Source: Polytrichum commune (Eukaryota; Streptophyta; Polytrichopsida; Polytrichales; Polytrichaceae). Taken from it: a stretch of 64,000 nucleotides of DNA. A program made the translations under genes and the position numbers. The stretch covers positions 14,818,001-14,882,000 of the forward strand of contig OX485806.1 of the NCBI GenBank assembly GCA_950295325.1. Reading direction: 5' to 3'. Shown here one piece after another: positions 47,256 to 53,900 of the stretch. Numbering within the stretch: position 1 is the first letter of the stretch; each line of letters begins with the position of its first letter. The notes under the pieces are model-generated. The model saw nothing but the letters and a program-made list of their open reading frames with translations, was not told where the DNA came from and searched no databases.

Positions 47256-47420
47256 TAAGGTAGAGGGTGCTTAAACCAACACTTTAAGCTATTGCACATA
47301 GATATGGCTATGTGGTTGATATATAAAAAATATATTCATATTAGCTTTGGGCTAAACATAGATACCAAGAAAGAAAAAATATTTTTAGTCTCAACACCTT
47401 TGAATGTGGAGCCTAAATGA
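47256..47420. mobile_element. Left end of an R7 element
   Basis: TAAGGTAGAGGGTGCTTAAA at 47256, followed by an interior that matches 10370-10500 (GGCTATGTGGTTGATAT, GGGCTAAACATAGAT). A matching right end was not found in the next 2 kb. Confidence 0.65.
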
Positions 47421-47526
47421 ATACCTTCCCCAAGTGCATTTTATAAGGGTTTTGAAATGCATGATCCTTATTTCAAAATGCTAACATGCTCAAGTTTTAA
47501 GTACATCCCTCGGATAGTCACTTTGA

Positions 47527-48285
47527 CGAATCACATAGTCGCCAATAAACCATTGTTCATGCTCTATTTAATATACGGAATGTGATATAAAAATAAATCG
47601 GAGAAGCACAACACCAAATGAAGCCATTCAAGCAATCATGTTGTTATTGATTGTTCCCTCCACGTACATTACATAATGGCGCAAGATAAAGTTGATGTTG
47701 TTTGTATATGGAGGTAGCACTGAACAACTATGAGATTTGGTGTTTAGGGTTTAGGGTTTAGGAGTTAGGGTTATAACACATTGACTTACTGATGAGAAGA
47801 GTCTTATAGGAAGGTTATAGTAAAGACGATTTTGATTATGTTAATTTGTTATTTGGGACGTTTAAACGTGATATATTGATTGGTCTTTTGTTTATTCAAA
47901 TAACATTTCATGTTGTGCATATTATTAGGGGTTAGGGGTCCAACTTTGGATGTTTTGCTCACTTTAGGGAATCACATAGTCGCCAATAAACCATGGTTCG
48001 TGATGTATTTAATATATGGAATGTGATATAAAAGTAAATCGGAGAAGCACAACATCAAATGAAGCCATTCAAGCAATCATGGAGAAAGATATAGCAGATG
48101 TTGTTTGTATAATATGAAGAAGAGTCTAATAGGAAGGTTATAGTAAATATAATCTTGATCATGTTAATATGTTATTTGGGACGTTTAAACATGATATACT
48201 AATTGGTTTTGTATTTAGTCAATACATATTTCATGTTGTGGATGTTATAAGGGTTTAGGGTCAAACTTTGGATCTTTTGCTCACA
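47527..48285 (+). repeat. Direct duplication with telomere-type TTTAGGG tract
   Basis: About 47527-47963 and 47968-48285 are adjacent copies (AATCACATAGTCGCCAATAA, TCGGAGAAGCACAAC, AGGAAGGTTATAGTAAA, TTTGGGACGTTTAAAC). The second lacks about 120 bp. In the first copy, 47742-47771 holds (TTTAGGG) units. Non-coding. Confidence 0.85.
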
Positions 48286-49080
48286 CACATTAGTAAACTT
48301 GAAGTGAATTTGAGGATGTATTCAAATATCATTGAAAGATTGAACTAAAAAGCGTCACTGGTAGTTAGTATCCCCTTAACGACGTCCACATACGTTCGTC
48401 ATTGCCACACTTGCATGCGAGATAATAGAGCAATGTTGTAGAATTAAGGGTTTAGGGATGATAACATATTATGTTTAAAAGCTTTTGTCACTTGCATTGC
48501 TGCAAATTGAAATTTGGAACAATAAATGAACTTTGTCATGACATCATTTGTTTTCAATATTAATAATTCCTCATGCAAGGATCTTAACAACTACTTTAAC
48601 TATTGTATGTAATGACTCTTACCATAAGGCGTTACACAATGTTTAGACTTCTTTTGTCTACATATTGGTTAAAAAATACCGTAATGTTTGAGTTCAAGTA
48701 GATTAATATCATGATTTAATATGTATATGATGCATTAGAGTGACATTGTAGAAGTCTTTGTTCTAAATCATTTATCACAAACCTTTTCTCATCATGACAC
48801 TTGAAATAATTAATGTGGCTGCCACCCTTCCTAAGTTCCTCCCAATGGCACATGTCATATCCACAAAATAAAATAAAATAAATATCCACTTTACTTTCAA
48901 TACACATTGTCAATATACACTAAGTCAGATGACGGCTGGGGTATCCGAGGGCATTGAAAGATGCGCATTTTCTATAATTAACAAAAAAAGGGAAATTATG
49001 TCAGGAGGTTTGAAATAACCTCTGTAGGAGAACAAGGCGGGAAAGACATCCAATGAGGAATTCGGGGAAGCGGAGGTGGA
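48286..49080. other. Gene-free AT-rich stretch
   Basis: No ORF of note, no clear repeat. It precedes the promoter-like region of the DUF7869-type element. Confidence 0.4.
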
Positions 49081-49083
49081 TAG

Positions 49084-49089
49084 TATAAA
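49084..49089 (+). promoter_or_regulatory. Candidate TATA box for the transposase-like gene
   Basis: TATAAA followed by a GC-rich stretch (GGGGCGGACCCCCCGGAG) and a pyrimidine-rich leader. About 960 bp before the first ATG of the decayed ORF set. Tentative. Confidence 0.3.
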
Positions 49090-49295
49090 GGGGCGGACCC
49101 CCCGGAGAGGCGGTCATTTTTTGCTCTTCTCCCACTTTTGAATTCATAGAGAGAACTCTCAGTCGGAGCTATACTTCAAGGTTTGTGCATGAGCACCTAT
49201 CCACATCATGCAAGCCCACTGCGAAGTTCGCAATGAGCTCAAATTCAACACACCTCGCAATTTCCGCCGCATTATACACCGGATTTTGCGGTGTG

Positions 49296-49843
49296 TTTGG
49301 GTCGGTCAACCCAAACCCCTCCACTAGTGTCGGCGGGTTCAACTTGTAGTATGACCCTTATAAAGTTTGGGTGGGTCGACCCAAACCCCTACCCCATTGT
49401 GGGCGGTTTCAATATGACCTTTCAGAAGGTTTGGGTCCGTCGATCCAAACTTTTTCGCAGATCGTGAACGAATTGTTAATGGCCCTTAACCCATGTACTC
49501 ATAAGGTTTGGATGGCCTGAGTACGAACCTAAACCCATCATATTCCAAGGTTTGGGTCGACCGACCCAAACCCCTACCCAGTGTGGGTGGATTTACCTTG
49601 AGAAAGTTTGGGTCGGTCGACCCAAACCCCTACCCCAATATGGGGGGTTTTAGTTTGACCATGAGAAGGTTTGGGTCGGTCGACCCAAACTGTTTCCCAC
49701 AGCGTGAACGAATTGTGAATGGCCCTGAACCCATCATGGTACAAGGTTTGAGTCGGTCGACCGAAACTCGACCCCATCCCATGGGTGAGCTTTGGATGGC
49801 CCTCAATCCATGCTGCCACAGGGTTTAGATCGGTCGACCCAAA
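49296..49843. repeat. Array of 8-9 near-perfect 20-bp palindromes
   Basis: The unit TTTGGGTCGGTCGACCCAAA has 9-bp arms around GT or AC. Copies are at 49296, 49366, 49430, 49551, 49607, 49670, 49747 and 49824, with a degenerate one near 49506. Spacing is about 56 to 121 bp. Linkers also repeat (CCCCTACCCCA, CGTGAACGAATTGT). The array lies directly upstream of the transposase-like ORFs, as sub-terminal transposase-binding repeats or a regulatory array would. Confidence 0.9.
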
Positions 49844-50044
49844 CCCCCCTCCAAAATATTTTGTAGCATATTTTTTGGACTGCCGCACAGTATTGGGAAT
49901 TCACATTGTAATTGTGTTGCACATGTCTTGGGCCTCGGTGTCCCCAATGATCATGATGTCTCGCATTTTCCAATATTTGATTCTTTTGGACCCTTACATT
50001 GTGTCCATGTTTGTTGAGATTTCATGTGCATGTGTGTAGGCGCA

Positions 50045-53000
50045 ATGGAAGGAGTTGGTAGAACAGGTGATTCCTTCTTTGAAGACATGGACACCACCCA
50101 ATCTGCATCTGGGGAAGAGCTAGACATTGTCGGGGAGGATAGTTTTCATGACAGTGCAGATGAAGGTCATTTGGGAGGTCCTTCGTCATCTGCATTTTTT
50201 TGTCCCATTGTGGAATGTGCGGGGCTTTTACGAGCTTTATGGGTGAATTTGGATGTGATACTTGTTAATGACAATGGAGTTGCTGTGGCGGAGGGTATTT
50301 GTTGTAACACCCATTCATAAGATTGCATTGATGAAAATCCCCTTGGCACCGAGGACGTTGAAGTTGTTATATTGGAATCACTCGTACATTCCGAAGTGAA
50401 TCCAATTCATAGGTTCTCTTTACGTAGGTGGCCGCTGAGGAATGTGACGATTGAGGGGGTTAGCTTGCATGACCATAAGCGATGATACATCCAAATCCAA
50501 CACGAGCTCCAAACAAACATTCGGCCACGCAAAGTCCTACGGAAGTACGATACATCGGCACGTCCTACTCCGTCTGTAAATGAGTGAGTCTACTACTCCG
50601 TCTGTAAGGAGTCTACTAGAGAAGTTGCCACAAATGATTGTTATGTACATCGTTGTTGCCAATTGTTCCCAAGGGATAAATTGAAGGCCATCCGCGAAGA
50701 AATGTGCCTTGGAAATTTCCGTCTAAGATCCACCAAAAAACTTGATATCTATAGGGCGATACATGTGCACGGAGCTGGTCGCAAGGTCATCACCATTGAG
50801 AGCATAGACGTGTGTTGTACGGCATGGTACACCATTCACAGTGTGTCGAAAGTGGAATTTTATAGACAAGCCGCGTATGCCAAGGAAGGCCGCCGGTCCC
50901 GTCATCATCGGAACATAGGCTTAAAAAAACCTAGGGAAGCAACGAGGTAAGCAACAGCTACTCTGGCAACCATCATTGTCCCCTTTGCCAATGCAATGCC
51001 GCCAAAAACATGCACATTCGCAACCGGTGAAAAGGTTGTGGAGAAGGTTCTTCCCACGGGCACAAAATGCAAAAAATATATTGTTGGACGTGAACGCAGT
51101 TGGCGAGAAGGTTGGATTGGACCCAATTTCGTTGTCAAAACTGAGTGCAATCAAAAAATCAAACTTTAGCGAATACATCATAAAAATACGAGGCGACAAA
51201 TTTGCCCGTTGTTCCAAATGCTAGAAGTTGAAACGCCTTCGAGATGCACACACGATGGGGATAGAATCCAATGCAACACATCAAATGAATTATTTCAAGT
51301 ATGTGAACATGCAAGAGGTACACCGTAATGATTACTACACAAATAAAGCTTTATCCATCTCCAGGCCTTTGGAGGTCTTAACAATCATCTATGACAAAAT
51401 GGACCATGCCAAAACAGCCTTACCATGTTTTGCAAATCGAATAAAAACCACATATGGTTTTTTAAAGCTACCTGTATCGGTTATAGGTGAATTTGAAAAC
51501 AATTGCATTGCATTACCTAAACACAATTTTGTGCTTTTAGGTTTGTATTTGGGCATGGATGTACACCATGTGAATTTTTTTGTGTTATAGTTGAATATTA
51601 AACCATTGGGTTGGCATTGCAGGAATGATTGCACATGGACATAGTGATGTCAAGTATGCTCATTATGCTCTTGATTTGTATCATGCGGACTCAAACCACA
51701 CGATAGGGTCATTTACAAAGCTTTTATGTGATTTGGAGAAACCACCGTCCTATTCGTCAAGATTGTTATTTGAAAACTCGGGGTCAACACCTCTATATGA
51801 AGCGGTCTTGGATGGAAAAGATGTATGCCTGCACTCGTTGCCGGAGCCACCAAGTGAAGATGTGATTGCCACGAATTTGCCCCCAACTCTGCGTGTCCAA
51901 TTAGACAATTGTGCCAGGGACAATAAAAGTAGATATGTTTTTGCATATTGGTCGTTGCTAGTTGCAAAAGGCATTTTCAAGGAAGTGTTTGTGTCATTTT
52001 TGTTGGTAGGTCACACGCACGATGATATTGATCCATCTTTTGGGCAGTGGAGCATGAAGTTGCGCGAGGAGGATTTTCCAACAATCCTATTGTTAATGAA
52101 GTCGTACATGGATTTGGAAAATATTCCCGTCATCCCCCATATGATCGAGGAGGTTCCCGACTTCAAGGCATTTATAGAACCGTATATTCAAAGCGGAGCT
52201 CACCGATTGATCGGGCATACGAAGGCACAACAATTTTGTTTCTACATGCGTGACGATGGTGTCCCCGCCATGCAATACAAGTTGTTGTGCACGACACAAG
52301 ACTGGAGCCTACCTGAGGGTCTCCTTGTATGGCGCGTTGATGGGGAGGGAAGGACGATGTTGCCAGACGAAGAGCCTAAACCTTGCAAACCAATACACAT
52401 GAAGAATTTAGAGGATATTGATAAAGACATATCATACTTCATATAATATTGGGAGAGTTTGAGGGTATCGGATGTTGGTGGATCATGTTGGCTTTGTTAC
52501 GGAAGTTGGATACAGTATTGGGTACATGTTCGTGGCGCCTTGGCAACCCTTCATCAAGATACACCCCTTATTTTGAGGCATGAGTTTTGGCCACAAACAC
52601 GTGTCAATGTACAAGCTTCGGAGGTTAGTCTTTTGGGAAATGAAGAGGTTCGAGAGGAGTTTGATGTGGACGACCATTACGTGGGCCCTGCTAGTAGTCG
52701 TCCCCCACCATCTTTTCACATTGCAGTGGATCGTCATGAAGGCTATATGCTTATTTTGCGTCCTGGAGATGAGACATATGCGAAGCCAGTGTGGGTGGCA
52801 AGAGCTTTGTCCAAACCAAATTTTGTAACTTCCAGCCCTCATTTTCGACAAATACAAGTGGAGTACTACCGACGACAACACGGAATGAAGATGTGATTCG
52901 GCATTATACAGGCTGGGATACAAACCCTAACTTTTGGTGGAAGGTGGATTCTGAGCACGGTCCATCTTGGGTAGATACAGATTCCATATTCATAGCATGG

Positions 53001-53107
53001 AAACCACGGAAAAATCATAGTAGATCAGTGTCCATCCCTCAAAATTACATAACTTTTATAAAAGACAACCTTGCTCGGATCGCACAAGAAGCAACCCACG
53101 TTGAATG
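50045..53107 (+). pseudogene. Broken DUF7869-type transposase-like gene of a DNA transposon
   Basis: The set of frames reads as one protein interrupted by stops and frameshifts. 50045-50457 is an acidic N-terminal part with a premature stop at 50318. About 50663-51225 is basic with Cys pairs (FARCSKC at about 51200). 51228-51590 follows one stop codon later in the same frame. 51625-52446 is the conserved core: LPPTLRVQLDNCARDNKSRY, then FVSFLLVGHTHDDIDPSFGQ, an RNase H-like fold with Asp and His-Asp-Asp residues. 52459-52896 continues in frame after one stop. 52870-53107 continues after a frameshift. The family is known to me from mosses, liverworts, fungi and oomycetes, and its mobilisation mechanism is not well described. 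Termini were not located. Confidence 0.8.
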
Positions 53108-53900
53108 AGAAGTTGGTAGGATTATGTTAGCATGACTATAGTTTCATATGTAATTCTAGCAATATATATTACTCATATGTGTACTCTTCAAAATTGGGGC
53201 AGAGTTTGGGTTGAACTTACGAATGCTATATTGTTTGGGGTTGGATGAATATCCATTTATTATATTTCAAAACGAATGTGAAGTTCATCTTATCATTAAG
53301 TTTGGGACTAAATTGTCGATTGAAGAAATATGCATTTATTACATGCACTTTATATGTTGCAATGTCTATATTTTATTGATCATGCTAATAATAGAAACCA
53401 TTTTATATGTTTTTTGGGTGAATCTTGTTTGGAGTGCTCTACCCAATGTGTTTTTGTTGATGAAGTTGGTGTCGAGTACTCTACCATATGTGCTTATGTC
53501 CGCACATCATAAATTTGGGATATTAGAACATATAATATATTTGAGATTGTTGATAATATAGTTTCGGGCATCTTCATGTTGTTTGATCTATATATTAATT
53601 TGAGACTAGAGAAAGTCTCAAATTAACGAATATAGTGTTAGTAGGGCAATTTTCTTCTTGTAAAAATACCTAGGTAGTCTTGCGATTCTTTGAAGTTAGT
53701 GGATCTGTATCATCTTGATAAACTGGACACAAAAGTTATAGAATATTATATTGTCTCTAGATGTGTTGGATAACCTTTATATGAGATGAATATTATAGAT
53801 GGAATGTTCAAGGTCAATACTGACTGTATTTTAAATGAATATTGGCCCTTAATTTGTGATACTAGAGGACAATCTACCTTTACAACTTATGATTCTCAAT
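53108..53900. other. 3' side of the element; no gene recognised
   Basis: AT-rich. At about 53597-53630 there is a palindrome TTAATTTGAGACT / AGTCTCAAATTAA with an 8-bp loop that could be a terminator-like or terminal structure. No ORF recognised. Confidence 0.4.

Follow-up and report, generated by a model that had tools for sequence, protein, structure and literature searches.

Palindromic sites occur in clusters in the ParB-parS partition systems. In the En/Spm (CACTA) transposons, the sites of the element-encoded protein TNPA are short, subterminal and present in many copies, and they have been tied to promoter activity and to methylation. The VANDAL elements of Arabidopsis carry VANC anti-silencing proteins (PMC5735166, PMC10398659), and the targets of VANC21 and VANC6 are arrays of family-specific motifs in non-coding DNA, introns among it (PMC5735166). 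VANDAL/VANC is the one published case retrieved by our searches in which a transposon encodes anti-silencing that is specific to its family and co-evolves with motifs in non-coding DNA.

The locus considered here lies in a stretch of 64,000 nucleotides of the genome of Polytrichum commune (the window) and belongs to one of at least four families, A to D, of transposons that carry a DUF7869 gene. It shares with VANDAL/VANC the family-specific motif arrays in non-coding DNA. The two differ in that the VANDAL motif is directional and 8–9 bases long, whereas here the unit is a 20-bp palindrome, and in that the transposase-like gene encodes DUF7869 and is not of the Mutator type. Moreover, the exons scanned contain no VANC-like domain that Pfam recognises, and both binding and anti-silencing are putative here, by analogy. 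With En/Spm the elements have in common a multi-copy short site and, in families A and B, a few units near the ends; in contrast, their main arrays are internal and promoter-proximal, and families C and D lack a unit near the DUF7869-side ends tested. The likeness to ParB-parS consists of the clustered palindromes and of a (V/I)xGQH segment in the second gene of the elements (gene 2) that is in register with the ParB N-terminal domain, but the context is that of a eukaryotic transposon.

A pattern scan of the window yielded eight near-identical 20-bp palindromes that match TTTGGGTCGGTCGACCCAAA with 0–2 mismatches, at start-to-start distances of 56–121 bp (Table 1). The rest of the window contains no such unit at up to 3 mismatches, and 100 shuffles gave a mean of 0.00. 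The original prediction of eight or nine palindromes immediately preceding DUF7869 reading frames is thereby borne out for the spacing, the position and eight units, all of them within the predicted interval; a ninth was not recovered by the scan and is, at best, a very degenerate unit that can be placed by eye near 49505. Directly downstream of the array there is a broken DUF7869 gene, which scores 133.7 bits with PF25273, where the curated cut-off is 26. The further suggestion of a dimer-binding site is supported as to appearance. In family A as a whole the arms are conserved and the spacer letters variable, and the arms extend to about 10 bp, with a flanking G conserved at 92% and a flanking C at 93% (110 sites).

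Table 1. Features of the family-A copy in the window (positions counted from the first letter of the window)
Feature	Position	Strand	Basis
Partial family-A DUF7869 transposon; left part with gene 2 and far terminus missing	47400..53639 (start approximate)	+	Alignment to intact relatives
Array of 8 20-bp palindromes, arms TTTGGGTCG, 2-bp spacer	49296..49843	.	Pattern scan and palindrome clustering
Starts of palindrome units	49296, 49366, 49430, 49551, 49607, 49670, 49747, 49824		
Decayed DUF7869 gene, split into several reading frames	50045..53108 (start set by eye)	+	Open reading frames, PF25273
DUF7869 domain, PF25273 profile positions 54-191	51868..52293	+	E 7.9e-39
Terminal inverted repeat, DUF7869-side end; reads AACACTATATTCGTTAA on the minus strand	53623..53639	-	Common to other family-A copies

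The array is carried by a decayed and truncated copy of a family-A DNA transposon of about 17 kb. The exons of gene 2 have no match anywhere in the window, and a second terminus of this copy was not found in the alignment to intact A copies. In many relatives the DUF7869 domain sits in an open frame some 500 aa long. In the DUF7869 gene of the window copy 19 of 115 CpG positions have changed to TG or CA, as against transitions at 142 of 3328 non-CpG positions, an excess that an old, methylated copy would be expected to show. The arms of the array have undergone the corresponding change at 1 of 16 CpG positions, too few for a comparison with the gene. The predicted fold of the window DUF7869 fragment had a mean pLDDT of 36.6 and was unusable.

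Intact relatives in family A are bounded by the terminal inverted repeats (AACACTATATTCGTTAA...) and carry DUF7869, an unclassified second gene and a NIF-type phosphatase. Two A elements were read from end to end; in both, transcription of DUF7869 runs toward one terminus, and the unclassified multi-exon gene and the phosphatase (PF03031, E 2.8e-13; E 3.8e-11 for a B copy) occupy the opposite strand. Alignment of copies revealed a sharp end beside the DUF7869 gene. One family-A copy departs from three others (L002, L003 and L004) within that gene, at L001:5376, where another repeat has apparently inserted. A 27-base A end pattern was found genome-wide 488 times on the forward and 489 times on the reverse strand at up to 2 mismatches (control 0), with recurrent head-to-head pairs about 16–18 kb apart among 100 listed places. 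The terminal sequences of the other families are ATGGGGATATTAACTAAAATGAG (B), AACACTATATTCGTTAATTGGAGAC (C) and AACACCGGTTTCGTTAA (D); paired ends are spaced by about 22–25 kb in B, 17–20 kb in C and 11–12 kb in two D elements of which the halves were read, many D pairs being shorter. With the end read at AACAC..., a 4-bp target duplication is present in 22 of 23 scored end pairs, which were hand-chosen from listings of end-pattern matches: 10/10 for A, for which the search pattern itself fixed two of the four bases, 5/5 for B, 3/3 for C and 4/5 for D, a sixth D pair being unscorable. A 2-bp duplication within ANNT was considered and rejected, because the search pattern had forced the A and the T; the correct end gives the 4-bp duplication. 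The latter led us to consider a tentative assignment to the Sola type. DUF7869 elements thus gain a defined anatomy, comprising ends, 4-bp target duplications, sizes of about 11–25 kb and accompanying genes.

The assembly holds 1494 candidate DUF7869 matches, of which the 150 that were scored belong to PF25273. In profile searches the exons scanned gave no transposase-like match other than DUF7869, and a Pfam scan that covered part of the exons of gene 2 and of the DUF7869 gene yielded no VANC-type family. No relatives were matched in viral contigs, and no publication naming DUF7869 was found in the literature searched. Between families, the first two gene-2 exons of A show 34–35% identity to a C element and the third 25%; the phosphatases of A and C are 41% identical and the B phosphatase match is at 31%. 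A NIF/FCP1-type phosphatase gene was seen in three DUF7869 families, at L010 (5421-6119), L046 (1428-2138) and L049 (4408-5028). For the second gene of D a cross-family match was not found, and it was assigned by position and its VDGQH segment alone.

Unbiased clustering of palindromes in 27 stretches demonstrated that it is the family which decides the letters of the dominant cluster upstream of DUF7869, and that all four family words consist of 9-bp arms and a 2-bp spacer. The arms of A are those of the window array; they read CCACGGGYG in B (CCACGGGTG or CCACGGGCG), TTACGRACG in C (TTACGGACG or TTACGAACG) and GGTGRGGCA in D. When the words were counted in 33 loci at up to 3 mismatches, the cross-family matrix was diagonal apart from one stray D-type site in L007, the sub-words cross-matching within B, within C and within D. 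A minimum of four DUF7869 families in a single genome thus share one site geometry while differing in the letters, and they offer a natural series in which to test how a DNA-binding protein and its site diverge together.

Clusters of at least five palindromes were present in 24 of the 27 stretches, the exceptions being L008, L032 and L033, and in 21 of 25 fetched DUF7869-bearing loci, among which L045 was tested only in the word-count matrix. Two sites are present in L033, which is a B copy that has been truncated. L032, without a cluster in the 7.5 kb read, represents a diverged DUF7869 lineage with about 35–52% protein identity to D in its main matches. L008 and L045 have no sites, and both are internally deleted D copies in which the two D ends and a 4-bp duplication are present. 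These two copies had looked DUF7869-only, and the idea that the sites go with gene 2 and not with DUF7869 was considered on that account; it was rejected because both still hold pieces of gene 2.

A check proposed with the original prediction was whether other DUF7869 genes have the same array. They do in the other fetched family-A loci, where the array recurs upstream of DUF7869, and they do not in families B, C and D, which lack the A word; there, a 20-bp palindrome with other letters takes its place. The reverse comparison was likewise mixed, since the D-type word occurs without DUF7869 in two stretches that were chosen for their D-type ends and consist largely of palindrome arrays (L064, G000 C1:17778600-17785400; L065, G000 C1:54848100-54855600). 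They contain 50 and 43 D sites, respectively, at up to 4 mismatches, no DUF7869 match and, of gene 2, remnants only. Apparently they are non-autonomous elements that have retained and enlarged the arrays; the duplication did not match at the end pair of L065 and the pair of L064 was unscorable.

At the level of the whole genome, the A word has 11488 forward-strand matches at up to 2 mismatches and the B word 1109 sites at up to 1 mismatch, with a control of 0 in each case. Over the first 21.33 Mb of contig C1, 100 exact A sites were listed, and 63 of them are found on the inward side of an exact A end at a distance of up to 18 kb, in zones that make up 0.97% of that span; the 37 others, one cluster of 18 among them, are away from any exact listed end. 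For B, a listed end is no more than 26 kb away from 17 of 50 listed sites; the number rises to 33 when listed B-type DUF7869 matches are counted too, leaving 17 near neither.

Within the elements, the main arrays are situated kilobases inside, upstream of each gene set, and single units occur between exons. Taking as coding DNA the protein matches between families at 1e-6, a definition that reached gene 2 only in part in B and not at all in D, none of 173 sites (3 of them counted twice in overlapping pieces) is in cross-family conserved coding sequence, against 48.5 expected from coding length, in 15 of the 33 loci. One B site (L049:2479) falls within an open frame of 630 aa, which is possibly a coding one. 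Sites are found in gaps between coding matches, which we read as introns, at L006:4861, L036:3224, L046:5597 and L010:3222, and none in the DUF7869-gene gaps of L009 and L040.

We consider it somewhat probable that the palindromes are bound by a dimeric protein which the element itself encodes and which activates, or relieves the silencing of, the family to which it belongs. The promoter-side arrays, the singles between exons and the letters, uniform within a family and different between families, resemble the sites of VANC21 and VANC6, and we infer the three parts of the reading, namely that the reader is dimeric, that it is encoded by the element, in the second gene or as the DUF7869 protein, and that its effect is activation or anti-silencing. 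Such a family-specific protein would bind the palindromes, occupying the arrays before both gene sets and the single sites between exons, and binding would activate the element genes or remove silencing marks from non-coding DNA, in its own family only. Co-evolution of protein and site would presumably have led each DUF7869 family to a palindrome of its own. In favour of this reading are the family-specific words of one geometry, the placement of the sites, the isolated units and the genome-wide counts; against it are the subterminal units of A and B, the lineage L032 without a cluster, the exon gaps without sites, the B site in an open frame and the listed A and B sites away from listed ends.

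A role in transposition itself is less likely than activation or anti-silencing, although we give it a modest chance. Subterminal repeats of CACTA elements serve in loading the transposase for the transposition complex, and a DUF7869 dimer might similarly load on the palindromes, including those near the ends, and assemble such a complex. The palindromes do occur in transposons and are linked to DUF7869, and the D-type stretches without that gene have kept and enlarged their arrays. A stricter scan had suggested that no site lies near the ends, a view that was rejected when distances to the termini were measured at up to 4 arm mismatches. Family A then shows a unit with 4 mismatches 191–192 bp inside the DUF7869-side end in all six copies tested and, at the far ends of two out of two elements, four units at 765–1581 bp and three at 252–891 bp, with 3–4 mismatches. 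In B there are units 207–230 bp inside the DUF7869-side end in 5/5 copies (1–3 mismatches) and, at the one far end read, at 240, 431 and 614 bp with 3, 3 and 0 mismatches. These units are not due to chance, because a search of 14 loci for the words of other families gave a single match at 4 mismatches and none at 3. Against loading at the ends, the five C DUF7869-side ends tested have no unit in the adjoining 2.1 kb, and none was detected within 2.6 kb of the ends of five larger D pieces (L029, L030, L031, L043 and L044); the one C far end read has a single unit at 724 bp with 4 mismatches. Subterminal units thus exist in two of the four families and are mostly degenerate, whereas it is in the interior, upstream of genes, that the arrays are dense and well kept; moreover, L008 and L045 have ends and duplication without any site, though deletion after insertion may account for this. 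The proposal that the array is the recognition sequence of the DUF7869 system is weakened in that intact elements have terminal inverted repeats of their own and arrays kilobases inside, and it keeps some force from the units near the ends of A and B, which fit end binding too and may point to a function in transposition, either besides the one inferred above or in its stead.

Three further readings seem to us improbable. The palindromes might act as nucleic acid structures, with hairpins or cruciforms forming in RNA or single-stranded DNA, for example in splicing or small-RNA production. This would suit the symmetry that is retained while the letters differ between families, as well as the units between exons, but the units of one element use the same letters and are not assorted compensated stems, as is expected of sequence recognition rather than of stem formation alone; we doubt it accordingly. 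Equally doubtful is an origin as a minisatellite, in which slippage multiplies unselected repeat units and exons are the one place where they are not tolerated. Most units do belong to tandem arrays whose repeat units are larger and whose copy number varies, but the geometry is identical, with different letters, in four families, and isolated units exist, 1.7–7.6 kb from the nearest array in the one B copy read. Sites with perfect arms stand alone in unrelated flanks, for example at positions 319, 1792, 5398 and 6249 of L049, which shows that the 20-bp unit itself has been kept. It is no likelier that the elements harbour a ParB-parS-like system, in which a gene-2 dimer of ParB fold would load on the palindromes of its own family in promoters and introns, spread and keep the element open, site and protein being re-coded in each family. 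Comparison of gene 2 with bacterial ParB by hhalign gave a non-significant E of 0.22 (reversed control 0.66), and searches of Pfam, NCBIfam and PDB sequences returned no ParB match; for these reasons homology of gene 2 to ParB was not adopted, and a ParB-like fold of gene 2 is suggestive only, as judged from sequence.

The assembly of 408 Mb comprises 64 contigs, and the seven above 40 Mb account for nearly the whole. Three family-A matches on contig C3 (G000 C3:10609273, 10693048 and 10776890) have identical scores at intervals of about 84 kb, which suggests segmental duplication. The same is suggested by a variant D-type end in four copies, 79–193 kb apart (G000 C6:5939000, 6129000, 6321823 and 6400795). 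The chlorophyll a/b-binding family has 58 matches in the assembly, and among 14 control genomes only Synechococcus matched, which marks the source as a photosynthetic eukaryote and probably a green plant; fourteen chlorophyll a/b-binding matches, with equal scores, are clustered at G000 C5:1751760-1846160.
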